This document shows positions 7,017-25,344 of a DNA stretch of 64,000 bases, piece after piece. How positions within the stretch are numbered: the stretch's first letter is position 1; every line of letters starts with the position of its first letter. Origin of the DNA: Loktanella sp. M215. Lineage in GTDB: Bacteria > Pseudomonadota > Alphaproteobacteria > Rhodobacterales > Rhodobacteraceae. The notes under the pieces are model-generated. The model saw only the letters and a list, made by a program, of their open reading frames with translations, made no database searches and had not been told where the DNA came from. The translations under genes and the position numbers were made by a program. Location: NCBI RefSeq assembly GCF_021735925.1, contig NZ_WMEA01000001.1, positions 3,564,001 to 3,628,000 of the forward strand. Direction: 5' to 3'.

Positions 7017-7052
7017 TCCCGGCACGCCCCACCCCATCACAGGAGAGACGTC

Positions 7053-7289
7053 ATGGCCGACATCCAATCCCCGCTACCGGGGACGTTCTATCAAAAGCCG
7101 TCACCGGACGAAGAACCCTACAAGGCCGCAGGCGATGCGGTCGCCGCGGGCGACACCGTCGGTCTGATCGAGGTCATGAAGACCTTCATCGAGGTCAAGG
7201 CCGAGGCTGCGGGCACCTTCGATGCCTACGTTGCCGAAAACGAATCCGCCGTGACGGCCGGGGCGGTGCTGGCGCGGTTGCAGGATTGA
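7053..7289 (+). CDS. stand-alone biotinyl carrier protein
   Basis: The 78-residue protein is a lone biotinyl domain. Lys43 in EVMKTF is the predicted biotinylation site; the usual motif is AMKM or VMKM, so this is a recognised variant form. It has no Ala/Pro-rich N-terminal linker of the kind seen in AccB of acetyl-CoA carboxylase. It sits 36 bases after pxpA and 4 bases before the biotin carboxylase gene. Its likely job is to carry carboxybiotin between the carboxylase (7294-8676) and the PxpB/PxpC-like carboxyltransferase pair, rather than to serve fatty acid synthesis. AGGAGAG precedes ATG 7053. Confidence 0.85.
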   Translation: MADIQSPLPGTFYQKPSPDEEPYKAAGDAVAAGDTVGLIEVMKTFIEVKAEAAGTFDAYVAENESAVTAGAVLARLQD

Positions 7290-7293
7290 ACCG

Positions 7294-8676
7294 ATGACCA
7301 TTCAGAAGCTGCTGATCGCCAACCGCGGTGAAATCGCGGTGCGGATCATACGGGCCGCAAAGTCGCTGGGCCTCGCGACGGTGCAGGTTCATTCTGAAGC
7401 GGACGCCGACATGCTGGCCGTGCGCGAGGCGGACGAGGCGATCTGCATCGGCCCGCCGCCGGCGCGGACCTCCTACCTCGATATCGATGCCGTGCTGGAT
7501 GCGGCGCGAACCTCCGGCGCTGACGCCATTCACCCCGGCTATGGCTTTCTGTCCGAAAGTGCCGCATTCGTGCGCCGGGTCGAGGCGGCGGGGCTGACCT
7601 TCATCGGACCTTCGGCCGACACGATTGCCCGCATGGGTGACAAGGTCGCGGCACGGCAGGCGGCCGTGGCGGCGGGCGTGCCTGTCGTGCCCGGGTCCGA
7701 CGGCCGGGTCGACGACATGGAGGAGATCATCGCCCTGGCCGACCGCATCGGTTATCCGGTCATGGTCAAGGCCGCCGCCGGCGGTGGCGGACGCGGCATC
7801 CGGGTCGCCGACGACGCCGCCAGTCTGCGCAAGCTGGCGCCGCAGGCCCGGCAAGAAGCCGAAGCGGCCTTTGGCGACGGCGGGCTTTACCTTGAACGTG
7901 CGATCCGTGCGCCGCGCCACATCGAAGTCCAGATCATGGGCGACGGCATCGACGCCGTGCATTTCTTTGAACGTGAATGTTCGCTGCAGCGCCGCCGCCA
8001 GAAGGTCTGGGAAGAAGCGGGTGCCGCCTGTCTTGATGACGCGACCCGGCAGGCGCTCTGCGCCTCTGCCGTGGCGCTGGCCAAGACCGTCTCTTACCGC
8101 GGTGCGGGGACGCTGGAATATCTGTATGATGCGCAAACGAACGAGTTCTTCTTTATCGAGATGAACACGCGCATCCAGGTCGAACACCCGGTGACCGAAA
8201 TGCTGACCGGCGTCGATCTGGTGGCCGAGATGATCCGCGTCTGCGGCGGCGCCCCCCTGTCGCTGACCCAATCCGACATCAGCGCGCAGGGTCACGCTAT
8301 CGAGGTGCGTATCAATGCCGAAGACCCTCACATGCAATTCATGCCCTTCCCCGGCAAGGTCGGACGGCTGCACCTTCCCGAAGGCGATGGCATCCGCGTG
8401 GATCACTTCCTCTACGACGGCTACCAGATCCCGCCGTTCTACGACTCGCTGCTGGGCAAGCTGATCGTTCACGCGGACACGCGCGAGGCCGCGATCGACA
8501 AGCTGCAAAAGGCCCTGCAGACCCTCGTGATCGCAGGGGTCAAGACGACGATCCCGCTGCACCTTGCCCTGACACGCGACCCGGACGTCCGTGCCGGACG
8601 CTTTCATACCCAATGGCTTGAGACATGGCTTGCGGGCGGCGGGCTTTCGCAACAGCCGACAGGAGAAACCCCATGA
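7294..8676 (+). CDS. accC: biotin carboxylase subunit
   Basis: This 460-residue ATP-grasp enzyme carboxylates biotin using bicarbonate and ATP. It begins with the family's KLLIANRGEIAVRI, has the glycine-rich ATP loop AAGGGGRGIRV near residue 160, and the catalytic EMNTRIQVEH segment near residue 290. The whole length matches AccC of acetyl-CoA carboxylase. Its setting between a biotinyl carrier and pxpB/pxpC suggests a dedicated carboxylase for a cyclic amide or urea-like substrate, not the housekeeping AccC. The symbol is therefore a family label. Its stop overlaps the pxpB start by 4 bases, implying translational coupling. Confidence 0.88.
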   Translation: MTIQKLLIANRGEIAVRIIRAAKSLGLATVQVHSEADADMLAVREADEAICIGPPPARTSYLDIDAVLDAARTSGADAIHPGYGFLSESAAFVRRVEAAGLTFIGPSADTIARMGDKVAARQAAVAAGVPVVPGSDGRVDDMEEIIALADRIGYPVMVKAAAGGGGRGIRVADDAASLRKLAPQARQEAEAAFGDGGLYLERAIRAPRHIEVQIMGDGIDAVHFFERECSLQRRRQKVWEEAGAACLDDATRQALCASAVALAKTVSYRGAGTLEYLYDAQTNEFFFIEMNTRIQVEHPVTEMLTGVDLVAEMIRVCGGAPLSLTQSDISAQGHAIEVRINAEDPHMQFMPFPGKVGRLHLPEGDGIRVDHFLYDGYQIPPFYDSLLGKLIVHADTREAAIDKLQKALQTLVIAGVKTTIPLHLALTRDPDVRAGRFHTQWLETWLAGGGLSQQPTGETP

Positions 8677-9548
8677 AGACCCGATATACCTTCGGCGGTG
8701 ACGAACATATCTTCGTCGAAGTGGACGAGGAAATGTCCCTCGATGCCTTCTTCAAATCCCTGACGATGAGCAATGCGGTCCGCGCGGCGGACCTGCCCGG
8801 CGTGACCGAGATCTGCCCCGGCAATGCGTCCTTTCAGGTCCGCTTTGATCCCGAAGTCATGCATCCCGACGCGATGATGTCCGCGATCAAGGATCTGGAA
8901 ACGCAGGCCGAAGCCGCAGAGGATCGCCTGACCACCCGCATCGTCGAGGTCCCGGTCTACTACAAGGATCCGTGGACCCAGGAGACCTTGATGCGCTTTC
9001 GCGAGCGGCATCAGGACCCCGACGCGACCGATCTGGAATACGCGGCCCGGATCAACGGGTACGACAGCGTCGATGACTTCATCGTGGCTCATCACAGTGC
9101 ACCTTGGTTCGTGTCGATGGTCGGCTTCGTGTCCGGCCTGCCGTTCCTATATCAACTCGTCGCCCGCGACCGCCAGATCGAGGTGCCGAAATATCTGCGG
9201 CCCCGGACCGACACGCCGAAACAGACCGTGGGCTACGGCGGCTGCTTTACCGCGATCTATTCCGTGCGCGGCGCCGGTGGCTACCAGATGTTCGGGATCA
9301 CGCCGATGACGATCTACGACCCCCGGCAAGAGGTGTCGTACCTGAAGGATTTCATGGTATTTTTCCGCCCCGGCGACATTGTCAAGTTCGCACCCATCGA
9401 CCGCGCCGAATACGACCGCGTCCTTGCAGGGGTTGCCGACGGGACATGGCAACCCCGGATCGCAGAGGTGGAATTCGACCTCGACGCCTTCAAGGCGGAC
9501 ATGACCGGCACCAATGCCAAGCTGATGGAGGCGCTCAATGACGCTTGA
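8673..9548 (+). CDS. pxpB: 5-oxoprolinase subunit B / KipI-family carboxyltransferase subunit
   Basis: The 291-residue protein belongs to the KipI (AHS1) family, which in E. coli and Bacillus forms 5-oxoprolinase with PxpA and PxpC and in urea carboxylase forms half of the carboxyltransferase domain. Family features include GGYQMFG near residue 204 and the preceding proline-rich PRTDTPK segment. ATG 8673 follows an AGGAG ribosome-binding site and overlaps the end of the biotin carboxylase gene. Its own end overlaps pxpC by 11 bases. At 291 residues it is longer than E. coli PxpB (about 218), with an N-terminal extension of unclear role. Confidence 0.85.
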   Translation: MKTRYTFGGDEHIFVEVDEEMSLDAFFKSLTMSNAVRAADLPGVTEICPGNASFQVRFDPEVMHPDAMMSAIKDLETQAEAAEDRLTTRIVEVPVYYKDPWTQETLMRFRERHQDPDATDLEYAARINGYDSVDDFIVAHHSAPWFVSMVGFVSGLPFLYQLVARDRQIEVPKYLRPRTDTPKQTVGYGGCFTAIYSVRGAGGYQMFGITPMTIYDPRQEVSYLKDFMVFFRPGDIVKFAPIDRAEYDRVLAGVADGTWQPRIAEVEFDLDAFKADMTGTNAKLMEALNDA

Positions 9549-10509
9549 AATCATCAAGAACGGCCTGTCGACGACGGTTCAGGACCTGGGCCGGCCCGGC
9601 TATTTCCATCTTGGCATCCCGCAGAGCGGCGCGATGGATCGCTATGCCCTGCGCGCGGCGAACCTGCTGGTCGGCAATCCCGAGGATGCCGCCTGCCTGG
9701 AAGCCGTCTTCATGGGCCCCGAAATCACGTTCACAGCGGACTGCACGATCGCCGTCTGCGGGGCAGAGATTCCGGTCACCCTTGACGGGACGGCCTGCGA
9801 GACCTGGACCAGCATCGCCGTGTCCGCCGGTCAGACACTGAAGTTCGGGTTCCTGACGGCGGGTGCCCGCCTTTACATCGCCGTGTCCGGTGGCATCGAC
9901 ACCCCTGCCGATCTGGGCAGCCGGTCGACCTATCCCATCGGCGCATTGGGTGGGGTCGCGGGGCGCGCGGTGCAGCCGGGCGACAGCCTGCCTGTCGGGA
10001 CCGGCACAGCCGCCGCGGCCGGGCGCTGCGTGCCTGCCAACCTGCGCCGTTTGCCGGCGACGCCAGCGGCCCTGCGGGTGTTGCCGGGCCTGTACTGGGA
10101 CCGGCTGACGGATGCGGCAAAGGATCGGTTCTTTGCCGACACCTGGACCGTCGCGTCAGAGGCCGACCGCATGGGATACCGGTTCAAGGGCGGCCATCCG
10201 CTGGAATTCGTCGACCGCGAACAGCCGTTCGGCGCGGGGTCGGATCCGTCGAACATCGTGGACGGCTGTTATTCCTATGGCTCCATCCAGGTGCCCGGCG
10301 GGACGGAACCCATCGTGCTGCACCGCGACGCCGTATCGGGCGGGGGATACTTTACACTGGGGGCCGTGATTTCCGCCGACATGGACCTTGTGGGGCAACT
10401 GCAGCCCAACATGCCGGTCCGGTTTGTCCGGGTCGACATGGACGAAGCGCTGACGGCGCGGCGTCACGAGTCCGAACGGCTTGACCGTCTGCGGCAGGCG
10501 CTGCGGTGA
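9538..10509 (+). CDS. pxpC: 5-oxoprolinase subunit C / KipA-family carboxyltransferase subunit
   Basis: The 323-residue protein is a KipA (AHS2) family member, recognised by the N-terminal LSTTVQDLGRPGYFHLGIP and AMDRYALRAANLLVGN segments. KipA pairs with KipI, either in 5-oxoprolinase or as the carboxyltransferase half of urea carboxylase. It is the last gene of the operon started by pxpA; the start lies inside pxpB. With the biotin carboxylase and carrier, the set PxpB + PxpC + BC + BCCP equals a split urea-carboxylase. Which reaction it catalyses cannot be decided from the sequence. Confidence 0.86.
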   Translation: MTLEIIKNGLSTTVQDLGRPGYFHLGIPQSGAMDRYALRAANLLVGNPEDAACLEAVFMGPEITFTADCTIAVCGAEIPVTLDGTACETWTSIAVSAGQTLKFGFLTAGARLYIAVSGGIDTPADLGSRSTYPIGALGGVAGRAVQPGDSLPVGTGTAAAAGRCVPANLRRLPATPAALRVLPGLYWDRLTDAAKDRFFADTWTVASEADRMGYRFKGGHPLEFVDREQPFGAGSDPSNIVDGCYSYGSIQVPGGTEPIVLHRDAVSGGGYFTLGAVISADMDLVGQLQPNMPVRFVRVDMDEALTARRHESERLDRLRQALR

Positions 10510-10544: not shown

Positions 10545-11540
10545 TCAGTCCGGCACGAGGTAATCGGCCAGATCGGTCGGTGGGTCGATGACCGACACGA
10601 TCTTGAGCTGCGCAATCGTGCGGTTCAGGGCGTTTTGCAGATGGGTCGCCATCATGTTCGCCGCCGCCCTTGCCGTGCCCGCCAGCAGCAGGTCGATCAC
10701 CATGCAAAGTTCCAGCAGGGACTGACGGTGCGGTGGCAGACCAATCGAGAACAGCACGCGCTGGGATGCTTCCAGCGCGCTGCGGTTGGCACTGACGTAA
10801 TGGGCCAGATCGACGTTCGGCGTCGACAGGATCGCCAGCCGCAGAAAGGCATTGTCCAGATCGAACCAGGCCTCGGGACTCATCGTGGCGTCGTCGGGGG
10901 TGTCACGGATGCGCACCGCAAGGTCGGCCAGCGCCGGGATATCAATCTCTGCGGATTTCAGGGCGGCGATCTCAAGAACGATCCGCATCTCGTACTTGTC
11001 CTTGATGCGACGGGCGGTCAGCGGTTCCACGATCCAGCGCATGTTCGCCTTTTTCTGCACCAGCCCGCGTTCCTGAAGGCGGGACAGCACGTCGCGGATG
11101 ACCGTACGGCTGACGTCGAAATCACGGGCCAGCGTCGCCTCGATCACGCGGTAACGGCCGAACACCAGACAGCGCGACAGTTCCGCCGCGACCTCGTCCT
11201 GGATGCGCAACCAGTTCGGCTGGCCAGCGGTGTCGTCCAGACCGTCAAGGTTCAGGTCGATGGACCGCAGATCCAGCCGCTGCGGCGTGTCATCGCCCGC
11301 CACCAGAAAGCCGCGCCCGTCGAACCGGCGGATGCGCCCTTCGTCGGCCAGAATCGACAACGCCCGCTTGACCGTGGCGCGGGACGTGGACAGCCGTTCG
11401 GAGAGGGCACTTTCCTGCAGCACCACGCCGGGTGCGAGCTTGCCTTCCACGATGTTGTTTCGGATCGCCTCTGCCGCGGCCTCGCATAACGTCGAGGGGA
11501 GCGTGCCGCGCACCTCGGCCAAGACCGGTTTGGACCTCAT
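10545..11540 (-). CDS. GntR/FCD regulator with two winged-helix domains
   Basis: The 331-residue protein carries two GntR-type winged helix-turn-helix segments in tandem: residues about 18-82 (ending GRIRRFDGRGFLV) and about 114-175 (SRTVIRDVLSRLQERGLV). A helical FCD effector domain fills roughly residues 180-300. Ordinary FCD regulators have one DNA-binding domain and about 230 residues. It is convergent with pxpC and divergent from the ABC importer operon at 11826, so it probably represses that operon. I chose ATG 11540 because it fits the first domain; a start at 11594 would add 18 residues of low-complexity sequence. The effector is unknown. Confidence 0.85.
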   Translation of the reverse strand: MRSKPVLAEVRGTLPSTLCEAAAEAIRNNIVEGKLAPGVVLQESALSERLSTSRATVKRALSILADEGRIRRFDGRGFLVAGDDTPQRLDLRSIDLNLDGLDDTAGQPNWLRIQDEVAAELSRCLVFGRYRVIEATLARDFDVSRTVIRDVLSRLQERGLVQKKANMRWIVEPLTARRIKDKYEMRIVLEIAALKSAEIDIPALADLAVRIRDTPDDATMSPEAWFDLDNAFLRLAILSTPNVDLAHYVSANRSALEASQRVLFSIGLPPHRQSLLELCMVIDLLLAGTARAAANMMATHLQNALNRTIAQLKIVSVIDPPTDLADYLVPD

Positions 11541-11628
11541 TGGTTCGGACTCTCTGCGGCGGATCAAGAACGACGTTGCAGCCAACCTACCCACTTTCGG
11601 GCGGGGATGGAATAATGTTTTTGGTGCT

Positions 11629-11643: not shown

Positions 11644-11825
11644 CGGCCGCGATTCGCAGCCTTTCGCCAATTTTTTCGATCTTATGGCGGAGTATTTCGC
11701 CTGCTTCGCTCAAAGAACGAGCAATGCCTCCACCCAAAAATGACTATTGCATGCACTAATCGTAATTTTTCTTGATCGACTCATCGAACGATGTCTGAAT
11801 GCCCAAAAGCGAACAGGAGTGTCAG

Positions 11826-12899
11826 GTGCTGACGCTGAATCAAGTCACACGCCGCTACGGCCAGACGACGGCGATCGACGCACTCGATTTCGTCGTGCCG
11901 GATGATACTTACGTCGCCCTGCTTGGCGCGTCGGGATCCGGCAAGACCACGCTGCTGCGCCTGATCGCAGGCTTCGAGGAACCCGACGCGGGCACGATCC
12001 GTCTGGGTGACGCGCGTCTGGACGGACGCCCCCCGCACCTGCGCGGCATCGGGTTCGTGTTCCAGAATTTCGCCCTGTTTCCCCACCTCACCGTGTCCGA
12101 AAACGTCGCTTACGGCCTGACCTACCGCGCAGAAGACCGCGTCACCGATAAATCAGAACTGAAGGACCGCATGGCCGCGGCCTTGGCGATGGTCGGCCTC
12201 GACGGCTTCGGTCACCGTGGCGTGGCCGAAATCTCGGGCGGTCAGCGGCAACGGGTGGCGCTGGCGCGGACGCTGGTGACAGAGCCGCGGCTGGTTCTGC
12301 TGGACGAGCCGCTGGGCGCCTTGGACGCCAACCTGCGGGACCGGATGTGCGACGAGTTGCGGGCGATCCGCGAGCGACTGAAGGTCAGTTTTCTGCATGT
12401 CACCGGATCCGAAACCGAAGCGCTGACGATGGGTGACCAGGTTGCCGTGCTGTCCGATGGCAAGATCGCGCAGTCCGACTCGGCCCGCGCCCTGTTCGAG
12501 CGTCCCGCAAATGCCGCGGCGGCCCGTCACCTGAACGCCTGGAACCTGCTACCCGGTCGGGTCGAAAGCAACGTGCTGAAGACGCCCGCCGGCGACATGC
12601 CGATGCCCCGCAGCCTGCGCGACGGGTCCGACGCCCAGATCGCGATCCGGTTCGACCAGATCGGCGTGTCGCCCGTCGACGCCGTGCCGACCGGGCGCAA
12701 TCATTTCACGGCCCGCTACCTGACCGGCGAATTCAACGGCCCCACGGCGCTGTCGTTCTTTCGCACCATCGATGGCGCACTGATCCAGGTCGTCGACCAT
12801 TTCAGCGATGCCCGGCTGCCCGACCTGACCGAAGGGCAGACCTATGCCCTGCATTATCAACCCGACGCAGCACTGGTCTTTGAAGGAGGCGCACGATGA
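11826..12899 (+). CDS. polyamine-type ABC transporter ATPase
   Basis: The 357-residue ATPase has Walker A GASGSGKTT, signature ISGGQRQR, Walker [16 protein letters not shown] and a C-terminal TOBE-like regulatory region, the layout of PotA-type importer ATPases. It energises the two permeases encoded next. GTG 11826 is favoured because CAGGAG precedes it at a good distance; ATG 11799 in the same frame is an alternative that adds nine residues. The signature threonine seen in many relatives after the H-loop is replaced by VTGSETEAL, where His of the usual VTHDQ is absent, so this subunit may be catalytically weakened and may pair with the second ATPase at 17472. Confidence 0.85.
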   Translation: MLTLNQVTRRYGQTTAIDALDFVVPDDTYVALLGASGSGKTTLLRLIAGFEEPDAGTIRLGDARLDGRPPHLRGIGFVFQNFALFPHLTVSENVAYGLTYRAEDRVTDKSELKDRMAAALAMVGLDGFGHRGVAEISGGQRQRVALARTLVTEPRLVLLDEPLGALDANLRDRMCDELRAIRERLKVSFLHVTGSETEALTMGDQVAVLSDGKIAQSDSARALFERPANAAAARHLNAWNLLPGRVESNVLKTPAGDMPMPRSLRDGSDAQIAIRFDQIGVSPVDAVPTGRNHFTARYLTGEFNGPTALSFFRTIDGALIQVVDHFSDARLPDLTEGQTYALHYQPDAALVFEGGAR

Positions 12900-13807
12900 C
12901 GTCCACCGCGGCCGACATCGCCACCGACCGCCGGACCAGCCCCGCGGTCATCCGCCAGAACAAGGATCGGCGTCGCGCCCTTTTGCTGCTGTCGCCGGGC
13001 GTGATCTGGATGACCCTGTTCCTGCTGCTGCCGCTGTGTATGGTGGTCTACGTGTCCTTCTGGACGCAGACGACATTCGCGGTCGAACCCACGCTGACGA
13101 CGGCCAGCTGGCAGCAGTTCCTCAGCTCTCCCACCTACTTGTCGGCCATCTGGACCACGGTGCGGATCTGGGCGATCGTGCTGACCGCGACGCTGGTGGT
13201 GGGCTATCCTGTCGCGCTTTACATCGGGCTTTTCGTGCAGAACAAGACGCTGCAGACGGCCCTGCTGGTCGCCTGCGTGATCCCGTTCTGGACGTCTTTC
13301 CTGATCCGCGTGATCGCCTGGCGTCCCATGCTGGGGACCGAGGGGGCGATCAACACGATCCTGCTGAAGGTCGGGCTGATCCACGAACCTTTGACCTTCC
13401 TGCTGTTTTCCGAATTCTCGGTGCTGGTCGGCATGACGCAGATCTACTGCGTGTTCATGGTCGGGCCCATTACCTTCATGATCGGGCGCATCGACCCCAG
13501 CGTCATCGAGGCCGCCCGCGATCTGGGTGCGTCGTTCGGCACGATCTTTCGTCGGATCGTGCTGCCGCTGTCGCTGCCGGGCGTGATCGTCGGCGCGATC
13601 TTCGTGTCGGTTATGGTGCTGGGCGAATTCGCCACTGCCGCGTCCCTGTCCGGCCGCAAGGTCAACCTGCTGGGCAACATCATCGTCAGTCAGGTCGGAT
13701 CGCTGAAGTGGGCCTTTGCCGCTGTGGCGGGTGTCGTCCTGACGATCATCATCACCGCGGTCATCACGCTGGCCCTGCGTGTCGTCGACCTGCGCAAGGA
13801 GATGTAA
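12896..13807 (+). CDS. ABC transporter permease, PotB type
   Basis: The 303-residue inner-membrane protein has about six transmembrane segments and the binding-protein-dependent transport loop EAARDLGASFGTIFRRIVLP near residue 205, which docks with the ATPase. It overlaps the upstream ATPase gene by 4 bases. It forms the membrane channel with the PotC-type permease that follows 3 bases later. The long polar N terminus before the first helix (LLLLSPGVIWMTLFLLLP) is normal for the family. The substrate is likely an amine, amino acid derivative or similar small organic nitrogen compound, judging by the neighbours. Confidence 0.88.
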   Translation: MTSTAADIATDRRTSPAVIRQNKDRRRALLLLSPGVIWMTLFLLLPLCMVVYVSFWTQTTFAVEPTLTTASWQQFLSSPTYLSAIWTTVRIWAIVLTATLVVGYPVALYIGLFVQNKTLQTALLVACVIPFWTSFLIRVIAWRPMLGTEGAINTILLKVGLIHEPLTFLLFSEFSVLVGMTQIYCVFMVGPITFMIGRIDPSVIEAARDLGASFGTIFRRIVLPLSLPGVIVGAIFVSVMVLGEFATAASLSGRKVNLLGNIIVSQVGSLKWAFAAVAGVVLTIIITAVITLALRVVDLRKEM

Positions 13808-13810
13808 GCC

Positions 13811-14659
13811 ATGAACGCCGGACCCCTGCGCCCTGCCCTCGCAATCTATACCGCCCTGTTCCTGCTGTTCCTCTACGGCCCGATGATCGTGCTGGCGATC
13901 CTGAGCTTTCAAAGCCAGAGCGGCGGCCCCCAGTTTCCGATCCAGGACTGGTCGGTCTACTGGTACGAGCATCTGCTGGGGCTGGCCGAAACCAGCCGCG
14001 TGTCCCAGCTGCCCGTGGGCGACAGCCTGCTGCGGTCGCTGACGCTGGCCTTCATGACGACGGTCGTGTCCGTCACGCTGGGCACCATGAGCGCGGAAGC
14101 CTTCCGCACGCGGTTCAAGGGGTCGGGCCCGGTCTTCTACCTCGTGATCCTCGGCATGATGGTGCCGGGCGTTCTGGTGGGTCTTGGCATGGCCTTGCTG
14201 GCCAATGTGCTGGGCATCGACCGCGCGTGGTGGTCGACGGCGTTCGTCCTGCACGTGGTCTATACATACCCCTTTGCGTTCCTCGTCATGCTGGCGATCT
14301 TCAACCGCTTCGACCGGTCGATCGAGGAGGCGTCGATGTCGCTGGGCGTCAGCCGCGGGCAGACGTTCCGCCGGGTGACGTTCCCGATCCTGTTTCCCGG
14401 CGTGCTGTCGGCGGCGCTTTTCAGCTTCACGCTCAGCTACGACGAATTCGCCCGGACCCTGTTCACGGCGGGGCGCGATCTGACCCTGCCGCTGGCGATC
14501 TACGGCACCTTCTCGGTCGAGATCTATCCCAACATCTTTGCCTTCGGCGTGTTGACGACGCTGTTCAGCTTTACCCTGCTGGTGATCTACGGCCTGCTGA
14601 TGAAGCGGTTCACCGGCGCCAAGACCAGCACATACAAAGGTCAGGAGGACGCGGCATGA
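13811..14659 (+). CDS. ABC transporter permease, PotC type
   Basis: The 282-residue membrane protein is the second permease of the importer, with about six transmembrane helices and the docking loop EEASMSLGVSRGQTFRRVTFP near residue 175. Its stop overlaps the start of the first SDR gene (ATGA), so the dehydrogenases are translated with the transporter. This implies that they act on the imported compound or its first product. Confidence 0.88.
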   Translation: MNAGPLRPALAIYTALFLLFLYGPMIVLAILSFQSQSGGPQFPIQDWSVYWYEHLLGLAETSRVSQLPVGDSLLRSLTLAFMTTVVSVTLGTMSAEAFRTRFKGSGPVFYLVILGMMVPGVLVGLGMALLANVLGIDRAWWSTAFVLHVVYTYPFAFLVMLAIFNRFDRSIEEASMSLGVSRGQTFRRVTFPILFPGVLSAALFSFTLSYDEFARTLFTAGRDLTLPLAIYGTFSVEIYPNIFAFGVLTTLFSFTLLVIYGLLMKRFTGAKTSTYKGQEDAA

Positions 14660-15384
14660 TCGCCCTGGTGACGGGTGCAGGGTCCGGCATCGGCGCTGCC
14701 ATCGCGGAACGGCTGGCAGCGGATGGCCACCGTGTGGCCGTCAACGATCTGCACATCGACAGTGCCATGGCCACGGCAACGCGCATTCGCGCCACGGGCG
14801 GTGAGGCGCAGGGCTATGCCGCCGACGTCTCGGACGAGGCGGCGGTCGGCACCATGCTGGCTGCCGTTCACGCTGACATGGGCGCCCCGGATATCGTCGT
14901 GAACAACGCGGGATTTGCGCATCAGGCGCCATTCCTGGACATCACGCCCGCGCAGTTCGACCGCATCTTTGCGGTCCATGTGCGCGGCACCTACCTTGTC
15001 ACCCGCGCCTGCCTGCCCGCGATGATCGACGCAGGGCACGGGATCGTGGTCAATATCGCGTCACAACTGGGCCAGATCGGCGGGGTGGAACTGGTGCATT
15101 ACGCGGCGGCGAAGGCGGCGATCATCGGCATGACAAAGTCGCTGGCGCGAGAGATGTCGGCCAAGGGCATCCGCATCAACGCCGTGGCGCCCGGCCCGAT
15201 CAACACACCCTTGGTCGAGACCCTATCGGACGACTGGAAGGACATGAAACGCGCGGAACTGCCCCTCGGCCGCTTTGGCGAGCCGTCGGAAATCGGCGGC
15301 GTCGTGTCGTTCCTCTGTTCCGCCGATGCGGCGCTATTCGTCGGCCAGACCCTTGGCCCCAATTCCGGAGATGTGATGCTATGA
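14656..15384 (+). CDS. SDR-family NAD(P)-dependent dehydrogenase 1
   Basis: The 242-residue protein is a classical short-chain dehydrogenase: TGAGSGIG cofactor motif at residue 6, NNAG near residue 82, Ser in NIASQLG and the catalytic YAAAK. It is made from an ATG overlapping the PotC-type gene and itself overlaps the second SDR gene. It should oxidise an alcohol or reduce a ketone of the imported substrate; nothing in the sequence identifies that substrate. The two SDRs are distinct rather than duplicates, sharing only family motifs. Confidence 0.82.
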   Translation: MIALVTGAGSGIGAAIAERLAADGHRVAVNDLHIDSAMATATRIRATGGEAQGYAADVSDEAAVGTMLAAVHADMGAPDIVVNNAGFAHQAPFLDITPAQFDRIFAVHVRGTYLVTRACLPAMIDAGHGIVVNIASQLGQIGGVELVHYAAAKAAIIGMTKSLAREMSAKGIRINAVAPGPINTPLVETLSDDWKDMKRAELPLGRFGEPSEIGGVVSFLCSADAALFVGQTLGPNSGDVML

Positions 15385-16142
15385 CCGACAGCAACAATAA
15401 GATTGTCCTGATCACCGGGGCCGGTATCGGTATCGGGCGCGCGACGGCCGAACGGTTCGGCCGGGACGGATATCATGTCATCGTGACGGACGTGCTGGAC
15501 ACAGACGGCCAGTCGGCCGTGACAGCGATCATTGACGCCGGTGGCAGCGCCGAATTTCGACACCTCGACGTGCGCAGCACGCCGGATGCCGATGCGCTGG
15601 TGGCGGATATCATTGCAATCCATGGAAAGATCGACGTCATCGTCGCCAATGCCGGCATCGCCCATCGCGTGCCGATGGCCCAGATGACGGATGAGAAGTG
15701 GGACGAAACCTTTGATATCGACCTCAAGGGGATGCTGCGTGTCATTCGTCCGGCCTTGTCATCGATGCCCAAGGGCGGGTCCATTGTCTGCCTCAGTTCG
15801 ATCATGGGCGTGGCTTACGGCTGGGATGAACACGTCCACTACTCCGCCGCCAAGTCCGGCGTCGTGGGGCTGGTCAGGGGTCTGGCCGTGGAATGCGCCA
15901 AGTCGGAATTGCGCGTCAACGGCGTCGCCCCCGGCTATATCCGCACGGCGCAACTGCTGAGCGAACAGAACAGTCTGGGGCCGAACGCGGCAGAGATCGC
16001 ATCCCCCTACATCCCGATGGGACGATTGGGCGATCCGGCAGAGATCGCATCCGTCATCGCCTTTCTTGTATCTTCCGACGCCTCTTACCTGACGGGTCAG
16101 GTGGTGACGGTCGACGGCGGTCTGATGCCAGGCCGCTACTGA
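15381..16142 (+). CDS. SDR-family NAD(P)-dependent dehydrogenase 2
   Basis: The 253-residue short-chain dehydrogenase has TGAGIGIG near residue 13, ANAG near residue 93, a Ser in LSSIMG and the catalytic YSAAK, and ends with the family's DGGLMPGRY tail. The start overlaps the preceding SDR stop by 4 bases. As with its neighbour, the position inside the importer operon points to catabolism of the imported compound. A 35-base gap with a CAGGGAA ribosome-binding site separates it from the binding-protein gene. Confidence 0.82.
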   Translation: MTDSNNKIVLITGAGIGIGRATAERFGRDGYHVIVTDVLDTDGQSAVTAIIDAGGSAEFRHLDVRSTPDADALVADIIAIHGKIDVIVANAGIAHRVPMAQMTDEKWDETFDIDLKGMLRVIRPALSSMPKGGSIVCLSSIMGVAYGWDEHVHYSAAKSGVVGLVRGLAVECAKSELRVNGVAPGYIRTAQLLSEQNSLGPNAAEIASPYIPMGRLGDPAEIASVIAFLVSSDASYLTGQVVTVDGGLMPGRY

Positions 16143-16177: not shown

Positions 16178-17404
16178 ATGACATCTTCTTCTTCGTTCAA
16201 TCGTCGCCGCTTTCTGCAGGGGACGGCGGCCGTCGGGGCCGCTGCTGCAGGGTCCGGCATCCACCCCTGGACCAAATGGGCCATGGCACAGGATCTGTCC
16301 TCGGAATCGTTGCGGACGACCGGTCTGTCCACGACCGTGCAGGACCGCATCCTTGAAATGTTCAAGGCCGACTCTGGCGTATCTGCGGTCTCTGGCACGC
16401 CGGCCACGTTCCCCGATGCCCAGACCAAGATCCTGTCCGGATCGTCCGACTACGACACATGGGAGATCATCGCAGAACGTCTGCCTGCGTTGATCGCCAC
16501 CGACAACGTCGAACCGATCCCCGTCGCCGACGTGCCGAACTGGGCCAACATCCGCGACACCTTCACCAAGATCGATCCGCGCTGGGACGCGCGGTCGCAG
16601 ATCACCGGCCAGATCTGGACGGACGAGACGCAGACCTCTCTCTACATGGTGCCGGCGGTCTACAACTACGATTCCATCGGCTACAACCCGGACGTCCTGT
16701 CCGAGGAAGAAGCCAACACCTGGACCGCGATCTTCGACGAAAAATGGCAGGGCAAGTCCGGTTTGAACGTCGATCCGCTGATCGCCATCGGACAGGCCGT
16801 CCTTGCCATGAATTCGCTGGGTCTGCTGGAGGCCAAGAACCCCGGCAACCCCACCGTCGAGGAAATCGACGAGGCCGCCAAGTTCCTGATCGCCAAGAAG
16901 AAGGCCGGCCAGTTCCGCGCGCTGTGGGGCGATTTCGGCGAGTTGGTCAACCTGATGGCATCGGGTGAAATGGTCGTCTGCGACGCGTGGCAACCCGCCG
17001 TCATGGCCGTCAAGGCGCAGGGCAAGCCCGCGAAATATGCGACACCCAAGGAAGGCTACCGCGCCTGGGCCATCGGTCCGTCGATGCTGCGCAATACGCC
17101 GAACCGTGAGGCGGTCATCGCCTACGCCAACTTCTGGCTGTCCGGAGAGCCGGGCATCAGCGTCACCGAGCAAGGCTATTATTCGCCGTCCACCAGCATC
17201 AAGGATGTCATGGACCCGAAGAAATACGCCTTCTGGTACGAGGGCGCGCCGTGGGAAGGCGAGGCCGAGCGTGGCATCAATCCCGGCGACCTGCGCGACG
17301 GTGGCTCTCTCGAAGAGCGTGCGGCGAACGTGGCCTACTGGCACCAGTGGCCCGACGAATACGACCAGCTGATCCGCCGCTGGGACGAATTCCTGAACGC
17401 CTGA
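16178..17404 (+). CDS. Tat-exported polyamine-type solute-binding protein
   Basis: The 408-residue periplasmic binding protein has a twin-arginine leader (NRRRFLQGTAAVGAAAAG) cleaved after about residue 38 (AMAQD). The fold is the PotD/PotF type of extracellular binding protein. It presents the ligand to the permeases encoded upstream. The C-terminal half has a segment KEGYRAWAIGPS near residue 290 and a WYEGAPWEGEAERGINPGD stretch that recur, diverged, in the leaderless protein at 20824. Tat export suggests that it folds in the cytoplasm, perhaps with a bound ligand or metal. Confidence 0.87.
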   Translation: MTSSSSFNRRRFLQGTAAVGAAAAGSGIHPWTKWAMAQDLSSESLRTTGLSTTVQDRILEMFKADSGVSAVSGTPATFPDAQTKILSGSSDYDTWEIIAERLPALIATDNVEPIPVADVPNWANIRDTFTKIDPRWDARSQITGQIWTDETQTSLYMVPAVYNYDSIGYNPDVLSEEEANTWTAIFDEKWQGKSGLNVDPLIAIGQAVLAMNSLGLLEAKNPGNPTVEEIDEAAKFLIAKKKAGQFRALWGDFGELVNLMASGEMVVCDAWQPAVMAVKAQGKPAKYATPKEGYRAWAIGPSMLRNTPNREAVIAYANFWLSGEPGISVTEQGYYSPSTSIKDVMDPKKYAFWYEGAPWEGEAERGINPGDLRDGGSLEERAANVAYWHQWPDEYDQLIRRWDEFLNA

Positions 17405-17471
17405 TCCCCGCCATCGGGCCCCGCAGGTGCGCGGGGTCCGACCCCTTCACCGGTTGAATTCGCAGGTGCCC

Positions 17472-18542
17472 ATGATCCACGATCTTGAATTGCTGCAGGT
17501 CGGAAAGACCTATCCCGACGGGACCGTGGCCGTGTCCGGTTTCGATCTGAAGGTGGAAAAGGGCGAATTCGTCGCATTCCTTGGCCCGTCGGGCTGCGGC
17601 AAGTCCACGACCCTGCGCATGATCGCCGGGTTCGAGGACATCACTCAAGGCGAAATCCTGATCAAGGGACGCAACGTGTCCCGCACGCCGCCGGAAAAGC
17701 GCCCGACGTCGATGATCTTTCAGAACTATGCCCTGTTTCCGCACATGACCGTGCGCCAGAACATCGGGTTCGGGCTGGATATCAAGAAGATGCCCAAGGC
17801 CGACAAGGACAGCAAGGTCGACCGGATCCTCGACATGTTCGACCTGACCGCCTTTGCTGAGCGAAAGGCCGACAAGCTGTCGGGGGGCCAGCGCCAGCGC
17901 ATCGCACTGGCCCGCGGCCTTGTGGTCGAACCCGAGATCCTCCTGCTGGACGAACCGCTGGGCGCGCTGGATGCGAACCTGCGCCGGATCATCCAGAACG
18001 AGCTGAAGCTGCTGCAGCGCGAACTGGGCATCACCTTCGTCTTCGTCACCCACGCCCAGTCCGAGGCGCTGGGACTGTCGGACCGCGTCGTCGTGATGTC
18101 GAACGGGATCGTCGAACAAATCTCGCCACCCAAGGAATTGTATCGCCGACCCGCGACCCGCTTTGTGGCCGACTTCATCGGGTCCAACACAATCATCGAA
18201 GGCCGCCCCGTAGGCTTGGCAGAGGCGGGCAGCTACGCCCACCTTGAAACGCCGCTGGGCCTGATCAAGGGGCGTGGCCCCGCAGGCGCCGGTCTGGCCG
18301 TGATCCCGGCAGAGGCCTTCCGCATCACGCCCAGCGGCGCCGCGCACGAGATCCGATTTGCCGGCACCGTCACCGCGCGGCAGCTGGTCGGATCGGTCGG
18401 ACACCTGCGTGTGCGCCTGTCCGACGACCGCGAAATTTCGGTCGAAACCCATTCCGGAACGCCAGAGGCGCAAGCCCTGACGCCCGGATCGACGGTGACG
18501 CTCGGGGTCGACCCCGAGGCGATTACCCTGATACCTGCATGA
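17472..18542 (+). CDS. second ABC transporter ATPase of the importer
   Basis: The 356-residue protein has Walker [10 protein letters not shown], signature LSGGQRQR, Walker [16 protein letters not shown], the H-loop [10 protein letters not shown] and a C-terminal TOBE region. Unlike the ATPase at 11826 it keeps the H-loop His. Two ATPases in one operon suggest a heterodimeric motor, or two alternative motors. ATG 17472 gives the family N terminus; a GTG-type start further upstream at 17427 would add 15 unrelated residues. It follows the binding protein by 67 bases. Confidence 0.87.
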
Positions 18543-18561: not shown

Positions 18562-19440
18562 ATGGCAAAAGAAATTCTGGTCGGCTTCGGCATCGACGTG
18601 GACGCAGTGGCCGGTTGGCTGGGGTCCTACGGCGGCGAAGACAGCCCCGACGACATCTCTCGTGGCATGTTCGCGGGCGAGGTAGGCTCGCCCCGGTTGC
18701 TGGACCTGTTCGACAAGATGGGCCTCAAGACCACATGGTTCATTCCCGGCCATTCGGCCGAAACATTTCCCGAACAGATGAAGGACGTGGCCACCCGCGG
18801 CCACGAGATCGGCATCCACGGCTACAGCCACGAAAACCCCATTGCCATGACCCGCGAGCAGGAAATCGCGGTACTGGACAAGGCCATCGACGTCATCACC
18901 GTCCTGTCGGGCAAGCGGCCGACAGGCTATGTCGCCCCCTGGTGGGAATTTTCCAACGTCACCAACGAGTTGCTGCTGGAGCGCGGCATCAAGTATGACC
19001 ATTCGCTGATGCACAACGACTTTACCCCCTACCGGGTGCGCGTGGGCGACAAGTGGACCAAGATCGACTATTCGCTGAAGCCAGAACAGTGGATGAAACC
19101 GCTGGAGCGGGGCGAAGAGACAGACCTGATCGAGATTCCGGCCAACTGGTATCTGGACGATCTGCCGCCGATGATGTTCATCAAGAAGGCCCCCAACAGC
19201 CACGGCTTCGTCAATCCCCGCGACATCGAGGAGATGTGGCGCGATCAGTTCGACTGGGTCTATGCCAACATGGATTATGCCGTGTTTCCGATCACGATCC
19301 ACCCGGACGTGTCGGGCCGCCCGCAGGTGCTGCTGATGCTCGAACGCCTGATCAAGCACATCCAGAGCCACGAAGGCGTGCGCTTTGTCACCATGAACGA
19401 GATGGCCGACGACTACGACAAACGCTTTCCGCGCGCCTAA
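18562..19440 (+). CDS. NodB-fold hydrolase, polysaccharide deacetylase/imidase type
   Basis: The 292-residue protein has the NodB-homology metal site: Asp12/Asp14 in GIDVDA and His86/His90 in HGYSH, with the partner motif PWWEFS near residue 130. It has no signal peptide and is therefore cytoplasmic. Cytoplasmic members of this family of about 290 residues include PuuE-type allantoinases, peptidoglycan-deacetylase-like proteins and cyclic imide hydrolase. I favour amide or imide ring hydrolysis, because the operon also holds an importer and an asparaginase. AAGGAGAG precedes ATG 18562. The metal is expected to be zinc, which may link it to the G3E GTPase encoded 400 bases downstream. Confidence 0.75.
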
Positions 19441-19514: not shown

Positions 19515-19838
19515 ATGTGCTCGCTCTGCGGCATCCTTGGATGCGATGACCACTGGACCAATGCCGTCGACCGGCCCGGAGTCTATACGCGCAATGCTGA
19601 CCGCCAGCAGCGCCGCGCGGATGCGACGCAAAGGATCGCGGCCGCGAACCGCGTGCTGTCCTTTCGGCGGCTATCACTCGCTGAATGGCAGGGACGGTCC
19701 TATGTCCTGTCCACGGCTACCGGCGCGACCACGATCTTCGACGCCCTTTCGCACCTGTGGCCAGAGGCAGAAGCGATGGCGACCCGCGGTTTTGATCCGC
19801 TGGATCCCGCATTGATCGACTGGGTGGCCGCACGATGA
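19515..19838 (+). CDS. small cysteine-motif protein coupled to a G3E GTPase
   Basis: The 107-residue protein is not recognised as a named family. Its N terminus holds Cys2, Cys5, Cys10 and His13 (MCSLCGILGCDDHW), a cluster suited to metal binding, followed by a basic helical stretch and an acidic C terminus. Its stop overlaps the GTPase start (ATGA). Co-translation with a G3E GTPase suggests a client or partner in metal delivery. The ATG at 19515 is chosen because it places the cysteines at the very N terminus; the frame is open upstream but only through the end of the hydrolase gene. Confidence 0.65.
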   Translation: MCSLCGILGCDDHWTNAVDRPGVYTRNADRQQRRADATQRIAAANRVLSFRRLSLAEWQGRSYVLSTATGATTIFDALSHLWPEAEAMATRGFDPLDPALIDWVAAR

Positions 19839-20827
19839 CGCCGGTCACGCTGCTGACGGGCTTTCTGGGGTCCGGCAAGACCACGCTGCTGCAACGTCTG
19901 CTGACCGATCCCGCCATGGCGCAGGCCGCCGTGCTGATCAACGAATTCGGCGAGGTGGGACTGGATCACGACCTGCTGGACCGCATCGACGATAATGTGG
20001 TGCTGATGAAATCCGGCTGCATCTGCTGCACGGTCCGCGGAGAGGTCGCCGATGCCCTGATGAACCTGCAATCCCTGCGCGACCGGGGCGAGATTGCCTT
20101 CGACCGGGTGGTCATCGAAACGACGGGCCTTGCCGATCCCTACCCTGTTCTGCAGACCCTGCGCGCCCATCCGGTGCTGCGCAGTCACTTCAACAACGGC
20201 GGCGTGCTGACCACGGTGGACAGCGTCAACGCGGCGTCCCAGATCGCGCACCGGGCAGAGGCCGTGCGCCAGATCGCCGCCGCCGACCGCATCGTCCTGA
20301 CCAAGACCGACCTTGCCGACCCCGGTGACGTGCTGGCCCTGTGCCGCGCACTGGCCCGGGTGAATCCGACGGCACACGTGGTGACCAGTGACGCCCCCAC
20401 CCCCCAGATCGTCGGTGCACTGGATGTCGGCCTGATCCCCGACGATATCCCGGACACCGCGTCCCACGAGGGTCATCATCACCATGCCCACACGCTGAAC
20501 GAGGATCTGGGCGTCGTGACCTTTTCACTGACCGTCGATCAGCCCGTGGACTGGACCAACTTTGGTATCTGGCTGACGCTGCTGCTGCACCGCTACGGCG
20601 ACCGCATCTTTCGCGTGAAGGGAATCCTGTCGATCGCGGGCGAGACCAATCCCGTGGCCATTCATGGCGTACAGCATCTGGTCCACGCGCCGGTCCATAT
20701 GACCCGCTGGCCCAAGGGACCACGCACCTCCCGCCTTGTCTTCATTCTCGAAGACATCGACCCCGACCTGATCCGCCGGTCCTTTGCCGCCTTCATGAAA
20801 CTGGATGACGTGCGGGCCGTCGCGTGA
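19835..20827 (+). CDS. G3E-family GTPase, putative metallochaperone
   Basis: The 330-residue cytoplasmic GTPase (COG0523/CobW family) has Walker A GFLGSGKT (residues 9-16), the metal-binding GCICC motif (Cys62, Cys64, Cys65), the LTKTDLAD base-recognition motif and a His-rich stretch near residue 213. Family members insert or deliver Zn, Co, Ni or Fe to client enzymes. Its 4-base overlaps with the cysteine protein upstream and the leaderless binding protein downstream make these three genes a tightly coupled unit. The client is probably a metalloenzyme of this island, the NodB-fold hydrolase being the obvious candidate. Confidence 0.85.
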   Translation: MTPVTLLTGFLGSGKTTLLQRLLTDPAMAQAAVLINEFGEVGLDHDLLDRIDDNVVLMKSGCICCTVRGEVADALMNLQSLRDRGEIAFDRVVIETTGLADPYPVLQTLRAHPVLRSHFNNGGVLTTVDSVNAASQIAHRAEAVRQIAAADRIVLTKTDLADPGDVLALCRALARVNPTAHVVTSDAPTPQIVGALDVGLIPDDIPDTASHEGHHHHAHTLNEDLGVVTFSLTVDQPVDWTNFGIWLTLLLHRYGDRIFRVKGILSIAGETNPVAIHGVQHLVHAPVHMTRWPKGPRTSRLVFILEDIDPDLIRRSFAAFMKLDDVRAVA

Positions 20828-22020
20828 CGGCCCCTCTTCGGATCCTGTGCACCGAAATCCTGCCGTGGCGGCTGCTCAAGGATCAGGCAGAGGCCGATCT
20901 GGATTTTCCGATCGAGTTTCATGAACAGGACTTCGTGACGGCCCAGCGCACCGCGGCGATGTCGCCCGAAAGCTACGATGTCTACGACCAGTGCTTTCAC
21001 AACCTCGACATCGTCTGGCATTGGCGCGCGATCCAGCCCATCGACGTCAGCCGGATCGAAACCTGGGACGAGATGACGGGGCTGGCCCGCACCATTGGCG
21101 TCCCCGGGCGACGCGGCGTCGGTGATGCACCGGCGACACGCCTTTACGTGCAGCCCGACGGCACCCTGTCCGAAAACCCGACCGGCCGCATCTCGATGCT
21201 GCCGACAGTCCACAACTTCGACAGCTTCGCCATCAATCAGGAGGTCTCGACCGTCGATGTCGACCGCGAGGTCACCAGTTGGAGCGAACTGCTGGCGCCG
21301 CGCTGGCACGGCCGCGTCGCGCTTGTCGACGAACCTGCGATCGGGGCGTTCGATCTGACGATGGCGCTGGTCGCAGCGGGTCGCATGACTGTCCGTGATC
21401 TGGGCAACATGACCGTCGAGGAAATCGACGAGATGGCCCGGCATGCGACGGAACTGGTGCAGTCCGGTCATTTGGCGCCGTTCTGGCGGCGCGCACCCGA
21501 ACCCGTCGAACGCTTCGCCTCCGGGGAATTGACGATCTCGTCGATCTGGTCGCCCTCTGTCGTCACGATGAAGGCGCGCGGTCTGAAGGTCCGGCAGGCG
21601 TTTCCGGCCGAAGGCTACCGTGCATGGCACGGCGGCCTGTGTCTGGCCCGGCATCTGGATGGCGACCGACTGGACATGGCCTATGCCTGGCTGAACTGGT
21701 TTCTGGAAGGTTGGGCCGGTGCCAACATGGCGCGGCAAGGTTATTACATCTCTGTCCCGGATCGCATCCGCGCACATCTGGACCCGGACGAGTGGGATTA
21801 CTGGTACGACGGAAAACCGGCCGCCCGCGATCTGCCCGATCCACAGGGTCGGACCGCGATCCGAGCCGGCGAAATCCGGTCGGGCGGGTCCTATCGCACC
21901 CGGTCCAATCACATCGCCGTCTGGAACAGCACCATGGACGAGCATAACTTCCTCGTCCGGCGCTGGACCGAGATCATCGCACTGGCCGAACAGCGTGGCG
22001 CACGCCGCCGCACCGGCTGA
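20824..22020 (+). CDS. leaderless paralogue of the PotD-type binding protein
   Basis: The 398-residue protein resembles the binding protein at 16178 across its length: VEEIDE, FPAEGYRAWHGG, QGYYIS and WDYWYDGKPAA match segments of that protein in order. It has no signal peptide. Its GTG start at 20824 overlaps the GTPase stop (GTGA), so no exported N terminus has been missed upstream. It should therefore stay in the cytoplasm. Possible jobs are a ligand sensor, a cytoplasmic carrier or an enzyme derived from a binding protein. No catalytic motif is visible. The gene is followed 18 bases later by the asparaginase. Confidence 0.82.
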   Translation: MTAPLRILCTEILPWRLLKDQAEADLDFPIEFHEQDFVTAQRTAAMSPESYDVYDQCFHNLDIVWHWRAIQPIDVSRIETWDEMTGLARTIGVPGRRGVGDAPATRLYVQPDGTLSENPTGRISMLPTVHNFDSFAINQEVSTVDVDREVTSWSELLAPRWHGRVALVDEPAIGAFDLTMALVAAGRMTVRDLGNMTVEEIDEMARHATELVQSGHLAPFWRRAPEPVERFASGELTISSIWSPSVVTMKARGLKVRQAFPAEGYRAWHGGLCLARHLDGDRLDMAYAWLNWFLEGWAGANMARQGYYISVPDRIRAHLDPDEWDYWYDGKPAARDLPDPQGRTAIRAGEIRSGGSYRTRSNHIAVWNSTMDEHNFLVRRWTEIIALAEQRGARRRTG

Positions 22021-22038: not shown

Positions 22039-23022
22039 ATGCCAAACGTCACCATCATCGCCACCGGCGGCACCATCGCATCCCGGGCCGCGACAGAGGG
22101 CGGGCCGGTCAATGCCGGGATTGCCGGGCAGGCTTTGCTGGACAGCCTGCATGAACGGCCCGACGGCATCACCCTGCGCGTGGAGGATTTCGAGGCCAAG
22201 GGCAGCTACGCCCTTGATCTGGCGACGATCCACCGGCTGTGTCAGCGCATCGACGCGGTGCTGGCCGATCCGGATGTCGCCGGTGTCGTCGTCACGCATG
22301 GCACCGACACGATGGAAGAATCGGCCTATCTGGCCGATCTGCTCGTGACCTCGTCCAAGCCGGTGGTCTTTACCGGTGCGCAGCGCCACGCAGGCGTGCC
22401 GGATACCGACGGACCCCGCAACATCGCGGACGCCATCCGCTGCGCGGCACACCCCGCACTGGTTGGTCAAGGGGCTGTCATCCTGTTCGAAGGTGATATT
22501 CACGCCGCACGCGATGTCGCAAAAACGCATACGTCGCGCGTCGATGCATTCCGGTCCGCCGGTCTTGGCAAATTGGGCGAAGTCGACGCAGGCGACGTCC
22601 ATATCTACCGGCACCGGTTGATGCGGTCCGTGCTGACGACGGATCGGCTGGACGACGGGGTGGAAATCCTGCTTCTGGGCCTCGGGGCCTCGCCAGCCCT
22701 TCTGAACTTCTGTCTGACCATGGGGGCAAGCGGTGTCGTGCTGGCAGCCTTCGGCAGAGGCAATGCCCCCCAGGGCTTTGCAGACAGCGCGAAACGTCTG
22801 ATAGATGCGGGCATTCCTGTTGTTGTCGCATCGCGATGCGGTGAAGGACGCACTCTCCCGGTCTACGGCGGCGATTCCGGCGGGCGCACCTTGGAACAAT
22901 CAGGCGTGATATTTGCCGGAAGCCTTCAGCCCGTCAAAGCGCGCCTACTCCTCAGTGTGCTTCTGGGACGACATTCAGACATGCCCTTCATGCGTCAATC
23001 GTTCGCGGATTATAGCGCGTAA
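22039..23022 (+). CDS. L-asparaginase-family amidohydrolase
   Basis: The 327-residue protein is a type I/II asparaginase. The first catalytic Thr is in ATGGTIAS (residue 12) and the second in THGTDTMEES near residue 87; VFTGAQR follows. It has no signal peptide, so it acts in the cytoplasm. The family hydrolyses side-chain amides of Asn or Gln and related half-amides. As last gene of the importer operon it may release ammonia from the product of the NodB-fold hydrolase; that order of reactions is inference. AAAGG precedes ATG 22039. Confidence 0.85.
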   Translation: MPNVTIIATGGTIASRAATEGGPVNAGIAGQALLDSLHERPDGITLRVEDFEAKGSYALDLATIHRLCQRIDAVLADPDVAGVVVTHGTDTMEESAYLADLLVTSSKPVVFTGAQRHAGVPDTDGPRNIADAIRCAAHPALVGQGAVILFEGDIHAARDVAKTHTSRVDAFRSAGLGKLGEVDAGDVHIYRHRLMRSVLTTDRLDDGVEILLLGLGASPALLNFCLTMGASGVVLAAFGRGNAPQGFADSAKRLIDAGIPVVVASRCGEGRTLPVYGGDSGGRTLEQSGVIFAGSLQPVKARLLLSVLLGRHSDMPFMRQSFADYSA

Positions 23023-25274: not shown

Positions 25275-25344
25275 TGGTCGTTCCTCCCTTGAAAATGACG
25301 TCCGTGGTTCTGCGCGATCTCCTCGCTGCGATCTTAGCCCTGAT

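Follow-up and report, generated by a model that had tools for sequence, protein, structure and literature searches.

A leaderless solute-binding protein and its accompanying GntR regulator in a Loktanella gene cluster: a possible split one-component system

Introduction

LysR-type regulators use the type II binding-protein fold as a cytoplasmic effector domain, fused to a DNA-binding domain. In Escherichia coli, the complex of spermidine with the binding protein PotD is reported to inhibit transcription of potABCD (PMC4951125), a precedent for the role proposed here. FCD domains, as described for the GntR regulators TM0439 and CitO, bind metal through three histidines (PMC4746285). Among enzymes, Helicobacter pylori HP0310 is described as inactive on typical polysaccharide substrates, with a small-molecule substrate suggested (PMC3084791), and HxnM is placed in the nicotinate breakdown of Aspergillus nidulans as a cyclic imidase acting between the dehydrogenase HxnW and the amide hydrolase HxnN (PMC9304392). 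Here we analyze a 64,000-nucleotide stretch of Loktanella sp. M215 (contig NZ_WMEA01000001.1, positions 3,564,001 to 3,628,000; "the window" below), in which a solute-binding protein (SBP) without an export leader, called SBPc, shares a gene cluster with a GntR regulator and an HP0310/HxnM-like enzyme, called PDA.

The constant company of the regulator suggests that SBPc is probably the cytoplasmic sensing half of a split one-component GntR switch for the catabolism of cyclic imides or lactams. Within the literature collection that we searched, no paper on a leaderless binding protein paired with a regulator turned up; the one hit (PMC13390454) is unrelated. Leaderless binding proteins draw no attention because they are annotated "extracellular"; the SBPc of Rhizobium johnstonii (RL_RS33620) is leaderless, yet carries this annotation.

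Results

The binding protein SBPc has no leader

The genes on which the argument turns are as follows.

20824..22020, plus strand: SBPc, leaderless solute-binding protein of the SBP_bac_8 fold family, 398 aa, GTG start
10545..11594, minus strand: GntR regulator with two GntR winged helices and an FCD domain; proposed partner of SBPc
16178..17404, plus strand: SBPtat, the importer's own binding protein, with a twin-arginine (Tat) leader
18562..19440, plus strand: PDA, HP0310/HxnM-like enzyme of the metal-dependent cyclic-imide-hydrolase family
19515..19838, plus strand: CYS, 107 aa, start MCxLCG...HW; accompanies PDA and G3E
19835..20827, plus strand: G3E GTPase (COG0523/YjiA-like), 330 aa, GCICC at residues 61-65, His-rich loop; proposed metal loader for PDA

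An earlier note on this DNA described CYS, G3E, and SBPc as a block of three genes, each overlapping the next by 4 bases, and considered a missed leader on SBPc to be ruled out. Both overlaps are present, and the second point is equally sound: SBPc cannot hide a leader because an in-frame TGA closes the frame six codons upstream of the GTG at 20824, which itself lies across the GTPase stop (GTGA). We therefore rejected a missed leader. Nor is there a hydrophobic core for export. No uncharged run in the first 45 residues of SBPc exceeds 5, compared with 21 in SBPtat, and from residue 5 the protein reads LRILCTEI, where the mature part of homologues with leaders ("led" homologues) begins. SBPc matches SBP_bac_8 at 44.7 bits (curated cut-off 27). 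It was also called a paralogue of the importer's binding protein, which is correct in a wide sense and not as close kinship, because the two share 33% identity over 263 residues and fall in well separated clades; with SBPtat in a distant clade, a recent duplication of the importer's binding protein was rejected. An APxVH-like vestige of a leader end was likewise considered in the leaderless proteins, where the strict pattern occurs in 3/14 and a loose one in 5/14 (strict pattern elsewhere: 15/25 kinase-type and 5/50 permease-type proteins). Since the pattern was drawn up after inspection of the sequences, we give it no evidential weight.

Querying genome contigs with SBPc yielded 26 related loci. 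The order CYS-G3E-SBPc is kept in 20 of them, always with a leaderless SBPc, and in these 20/26 the cluster is likewise kept in order from the regulator to the asparaginase; the block is not a chance arrangement. Start codons permit the 4-base CYS/G3E overlap in 17 of the 20 block loci, and a G3E/SBPc overlap in 17 (of 4 bases in 12 and of one base in five), with a gap in three. Among the remaining relatives, L024 (a Ruegeria metagenome-assembled genome) and L028 (Bradyrhizobium) are leaderless in other surroundings, and L025, L026, L027, and L029 have leaders. The earlier note had named two observations that would speak against a distinct leaderless system, namely homologues with a signal peptide and separation of the three genes in most genomes. 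Led homologues do exist (the four just listed), but they belong to other clades and have other partners; separation is the rule for CYS (27/30 loci without an adjacent SBPc) but not for SBPc, given the 20/26 loci with the block. Judged from the genes and their relatives, the leaderless state of SBPc is real and conserved, and SBPc would accordingly be expected in the cytoplasm.

A GntR regulator accompanies SBPc across genomes

The window regulator matches GntR in two stretches and FCD, both above the cut-offs. Its counterpart is found in 30 of the 31 genomes with a leaderless SBPc, all samples together: 6/6 in the class and family samples, 19/19 among the related-loci genomes (leaving out L023, whose locus begins within a regulator match), and 5/6 in the phylum sample, where the missing case (G770) has a contig edge beside the cluster. 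It is found in none of the ten kinase-type genomes of the phylum sample and in none of four genomes of other led relatives. In the family sample of 149 genomes, a regulator above 400 bits occurs in exactly those five (G000, G298, G358, G364, and G415) whose leaderless SBPc scores high (from about 450 bits upward; the next match scores 370). Three further family genomes have weaker regulators (192 to 220 bits) beside dehydrogenases, with no SBP in the locus. In two SBPc searches, with 44 and 33 matches, leaders were read for all matches except 12 and two, respectively, with scores of 355 bits or less. Six plasmid records were hand-chosen out of 143 that matched, led relatives being included in that count; each of the six carries a leaderless SBPc and the regulator.

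There are six contexts in which SBPc directly adjoins GntR and G3E is not beside it. The SBPc and GntR genes overlap by 4 bases in L024 and L091, stand one base apart in L028, are convergent in L093, and are 10 bases apart in L092, where a Tat-led binding protein that has permeases of its own lies divergently beside them. In the sixth, on an Agrobacterium rubi plasmid (L220), they are 165 bases apart in a 17-kb stretch without a PDA, CYS, or G3E match. On the same plasmid (L220 12164-17149), genes annotated npdG, cofE, and cofH (coenzyme F420 type) are found next to a GABA (gamma-aminobutyrate) transaminase and the SBPc-GntR pair.

The SBPc-linked regulators form one clade (26/26 rows, support 100/98), apart from ten SBP-less relatives, and by eye the regulator tree and the leaderless-SBP tree branch similarly. 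In the window's FCD domain the first two of the three metal histidines are both Leu. The same two histidines are lost in 27 of 35 complete SBPc-linked regulators (truncated L121 left out) and in none of the ten SBP-less relatives. This would fit a transfer of the sensing role to SBPc in the lineage of the window, and such a loss is not needed everywhere. Sensing of the substrate, which the earlier note had offered as one option, is the best-supported function of SBPc; the regulatory pairing appears better supported than a metallochaperone link, which is mostly co-transcription.

The surrounding cluster and its variants without the ABC importer

The cluster begins with the divergent GntR gene, followed by an ATP-binding cassette (ABC) ATPase, two permeases, two short-chain dehydrogenases, SBPtat, a second ATPase, PDA, CYS, G3E, SBPc, and an asparaginase-family enzyme. 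The genes not listed above are given here.

6258..10509, plus strand: YcsF/biotin carboxylase/KipI/KipA genes (PxpABC-like; named from sequence), first gene's start inferred
11799..12899, plus strand: ABC transporter ATPase 1
12896..13807, plus strand: ABC permease (PotB-like)
13811..14659, plus strand: ABC permease (PotC-like)
14656..15384, plus strand: short-chain dehydrogenase 1, start inferred
15381..16142, plus strand: short-chain dehydrogenase 2
17427..18542, plus strand: ABC transporter ATPase 2 with TOBE domain
22039..23022, plus strand: asparaginase-family amidohydrolase

The YcsF/biotin carboxylase/KipI/KipA genes precede the regulator. The complete cluster is present in R. johnstonii 3841, on pRL12 (with RL_RS33680 as its GntR gene), and there the counterparts of these genes beside it are annotated PxpA, biotin carboxylase, allophanate hydrolase subunit 1, and carboxyltransferase. 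Farther along the window (23874-25583) lies a gene that we take to read like selenium-binding protein 56 / methanethiol oxidase. Elsewhere in this genome, a second cluster (L094, C1 646000-665900) holds permeases, a Tat-led relative of SBPc, and an enzyme distantly like PDA (25% identity); no CYS, G3E, or leaderless SBP was called in it.

Seven SBPc clusters (L192, L193, L194, L196, L215, L218 from Pantoea, and L219 from Acidiphilium) combine PDA with a major facilitator superfamily (MFS) carrier, two dehydrogenases, CYS, and G3E. The MFS carrier is Pfam-confirmed in two of them and annotated in two; in Acidiphilium, SBPc is not beside G3E. The regulator is present in six of the seven, and the exception (L196) is cut by a contig end. 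Permeases of the window importer's kind gave no match within these clusters, the match in Pantoea being to an adjoining maltose operon, and a search of the seven for led binding proteins returned SBPc itself as the best match in each. SBPc is thus kept independently of ABC import, as far as these gene sets show.

Phylogeny and conserved residues

A tree of 90 binding proteins groups its 24 leaderless rows in one clade (97/91). In a tree of 50 chosen rows that includes distant members, the leaderless clade has 16 rows and the kinase-linked clade 19 (100/100); the two form a joint clade (99/99), with the led permease-linked proteins outside. The permease-linked and the kinase-linked homologues are both Tat exported by sequence. 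Neighboring genes were counted within 1.5 kb. A phylum search gave 37 matches, 30 with loci, one of them the window's own; of the 29 analyzed, a kinase-like gene lies near all 23 led proteins and near none of the six leaderless ones, and a permease near none of the 29. Kinase domains were Pfam-confirmed for L025, L026, and L027. In the 53 class and family loci, a permease stands beside 49 of 50 led proteins (the miss, L070, is at a contig end) and a histidine-kinase-like gene beside none of the 53; a Pfam search of the window cluster found no adjacent histidine kinase. Because the sister clade of Tat-led proteins adjoins kinases and not permeases, SBPc is best placed, going by neighbors, beside a sensing branch and not within the transport branch.

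The remaining three of the 53 loci (L053, L060, and L061; L159 8296-9576, L160 8409-9689, and L161 8875-10155) make up a second, unrelated leaderless-looking group in one genus, reading MADEHTRAPVFWDQKF... or similar, with a permease beside none of them.

The motifs EGxRxW, QGYY, WxxG, and RxGG are kept in all four binding-protein groups. Of 95 columns that are 95% conserved in the 53 led relatives, 57 are kept in the leaderless group. Eleven residues are common to the leaderless and kinase-linked proteins and absent from the other led ones, and R42, H59, D62, M125, A172, and N375 are kept in the leaderless clade only.

CYS and G3E as a module with PDA

The GTPase is a G3E protein, as the earlier note had it, with a Pfam cobW domain, the GCxCC motif, and a CobW_C domain. 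Of the "N-terminal Cys cluster" ascribed to CYS, two cysteines stand up: across ten aligned members C2, C5, and W14 never vary, H13 hardly does, and C10 is not kept. All 30 CYS loci (which include the window and two close relatives) have the start [M/V]CxxC[G/A], followed by HW in most. A Pfam search with CYS returned nothing above cut-off, and a search for its fold by sequence gave no notable PDB match (best E 0.06). The MCSLCG start and an asparagine synthase match of 12 bits raised the candidate of a glutamine amidotransferase, which was set aside because the match is far below cut-off.

A profile search found CYS in 18/289 class genomes and 11/149 family genomes. With neighbors counted within 1.5 kb, a PDA homologue is near CYS in 30/30 loci (weak in L142, only partly in view in L147), G3E in 29/30 (exception L143), and SBPc in 3/30. 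Two genomes, G096 and G457, have SBPc and the GntR regulator without CYS. A functional unit of SBPc with the GTPase and the cysteine protein, as originally proposed, is not supported by these counts, and G3E is weakened as a constant partner of SBPc. We propose that the block contains two modules, CYS and G3E belonging with PDA, and SBPc being for the most part co-transcribed with them. A G3E protein would ordinarily be expected to load metal into a metal hydrolase, and PDA would be the candidate client of CYS and G3E. The CYS-G3E-PDA triad would then offer a testable client for an orphan G3E GTPase.

PDA and the likely substrate

Residues 1-291 of the 292 of PDA align without gaps to HP0310 (517 bits), and PDA keeps D12, D14, H86, H90, and H247, the metal site described for HP0310 (PMC3084791). 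Because the window holds dehydrogenase, cyclic-imidase-like, and amide-hydrolase kinds of enzyme, a cyclic lactam or imide is the likely substrate of the cluster. More generally, the dehydrogenases, amidases, and oxoprolinase-like genes in the company of PDA point to cyclic imides as substrates of the HP0310 family, and the cluster would provide a physiological context for that family. In L092 (725-3464, genome G298), what is presumably a hydantoinase-like gene adjoins PDA and CYS on the same strand, a hint at a cyclic amide substrate.

Discussion

A proposed mechanism and the points against it

Because SBPc has lost its export signal and travels with a GntR regulator, it probably detects a nitrogen-containing ring compound within the cell and does not capture it outside. 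The cluster would import a cyclic lactam or imide, through the ABC system here and an MFS carrier elsewhere. Two dehydrogenases would oxidize the compound, PDA would open the imide ring, and an asparaginase or amidase would remove the amide. Cytoplasmic SBPc would close on the imported compound or an intermediate, and the double-winged-helix GntR, transcribed away from the operon, would read the closed or the open form. CYS and G3E would act as a separate module that loads metal into PDA, SBPc being co-transcribed only. The leader may have been lost when a Tat-exported sensory binding protein swapped its periplasmic kinase domain for a cytoplasmic repressor or activator. For the wider claim of a family of split one-component systems, in which a leaderless SBP serves as detachable cytoplasmic sensor of a double-winged-helix GntR whose own FCD pocket has decayed in most members, and which arose by moving a Tat-exported, kinase-linked sensory SBP into the cytoplasm, we put the chances at about even.

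Several observations weigh against a sensory pairing. The evidence for it consists throughout of gene neighborhood, co-occurrence, and phylogeny. Eight of the 35 linked regulators have a full FCD metal site, so these may still sense alone, and on the tree the histidine losses fall mainly on one branch (19 rows) plus L096, which makes about two events and not 27; both facts weaken the loss of the site as proof of a hand-over of sensing. In clusters of the window type, the gene that SBPc overlaps is G3E, and GntR is about 9 kb away. CYS co-occurs with SBPc in 5/5 family genomes, and the two share a cluster in most genomes checked for both. In Jiella pelagia (L121 1438-2500), counted within the 19/19, the regulator is split between two frames and SBPc is open. 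The GntR-ATPase 1 interval, compared across 19 sequences, gave no convincing palindromic operator; there are AT-rich shared words, and the best exact palindrome occurs in 5/19. Support for the leaderless clade drops to 89/86 in the tree with distant members, three of which are long branches. Finally, no permease, kinase, or GntR was found beside L053, L060, and L061, and since these look leaderless without a GntR neighbor, leader loss alone does not imply a regulator.

Alternative explanations

SBPc could instead act on a pathway intermediate in the cytoplasm, by carrying, buffering, or even converting it. Enzymes with a binding-protein fold exist, as yeast Thi5 shows; SBPc sits in catabolic clusters wherever its surroundings were read, and its binding-fold motifs are kept. 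Such a role would leave unexplained the steady pairing with one regulator clade and the kinase-linked sister clade, and the catabolic genes differ between contexts (L028, L220) whereas GntR is constant. We consider it unlikely.

Somewhat less likely still is that SBPc works together with G3E and CYS, receiving a metal-ligand complex in the cytoplasm or serving as a check on metal loading. This reading would account for the SBPc/G3E overlap in 17/20 window-type loci, and for the fact that SBPc overlaps G3E or stands within 10 bases of it in four MFS-type clusters (L192, L193, L196, and L218) and on three rhizobial plasmids (L216, L217, and L221). Against this, SBPc is missing from 27 of the 30 CYS loci, none of which lacks a PDA homologue; CYS is missing from G096 and G457, where SBPc is present; and SBPc does not adjoin G3E in L024, L091, L092, and L219.

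That SBPc regulates the importer from inside, by trans-inhibition with captured substrate, seems improbable. An ABC importer does share the operon in 20/26 loci, but SBPc is kept in MFS-carrier clusters without such a permease, and positions 132, 135, 176, 193, 224, and 249 (SBPc numbering), which are at least 95% conserved among the 53 led relatives, survive in no more than 11% of leaderless rows. Export by an unrecognized route, for example as passenger of another exported protein, is very improbable: Tat can carry passengers and the permease-linked and kinase-linked homologues are predicted Tat substrates, but SBPtat is the operon's only Tat-led binding protein, and clusters in which no exported binding protein was found still have SBPc.

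Comparison with known systems

The proposed sensory role of SBPc and the proposed PDA module can each be set beside described systems. PDA resembles HP0310 (PDB 3qbu) in its near full-length, gapless alignment and shared metal site; the substrate of HP0310 is treated as unknown in its description (PMC3084791). HxnM, the other relative, acts in a fungal pathway, that of nicotinate breakdown (PMC9304392). The window G3E has its family and two-domain layout in common with YjiA (PDB 1nij) and differs from it in the His-rich loop and in the company of CYS and PDA. The window regulator combines GntR winged helix and FCD as TM0439 and CitO do (PMC4746285), and differs from them in having two winged helices, a degraded FCD metal site, and an external binding protein alongside. 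The closest relatives of SBPc in sequence are binding proteins paired with histidine kinases, with the kinase alongside and no permease; those are Tat exported by sequence and stand beside a membrane kinase, whereas SBPc is leaderless and stands with GntR.

In function, SBPc may be compared with PotD, where a ligand-bound binding protein is reported to control transcription of its own transport operon (PMC4951125). PotD is an importer's exported protein that moonlights, whereas SBPc, leaderless, would be dedicated to the task, with a regulator of its own and a separate exported SBP nearby. If the pairing is true, a fold of transport and periplasmic sensing has been put to new use in the cytoplasm, where it binds the effector for a transcription factor as a separate subunit. 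This would represent a step between the moonlighting PotD and the LysR-type regulators, in which the fold is fused to the DNA-binding domain, SBPc by comparison being a protein of its own.

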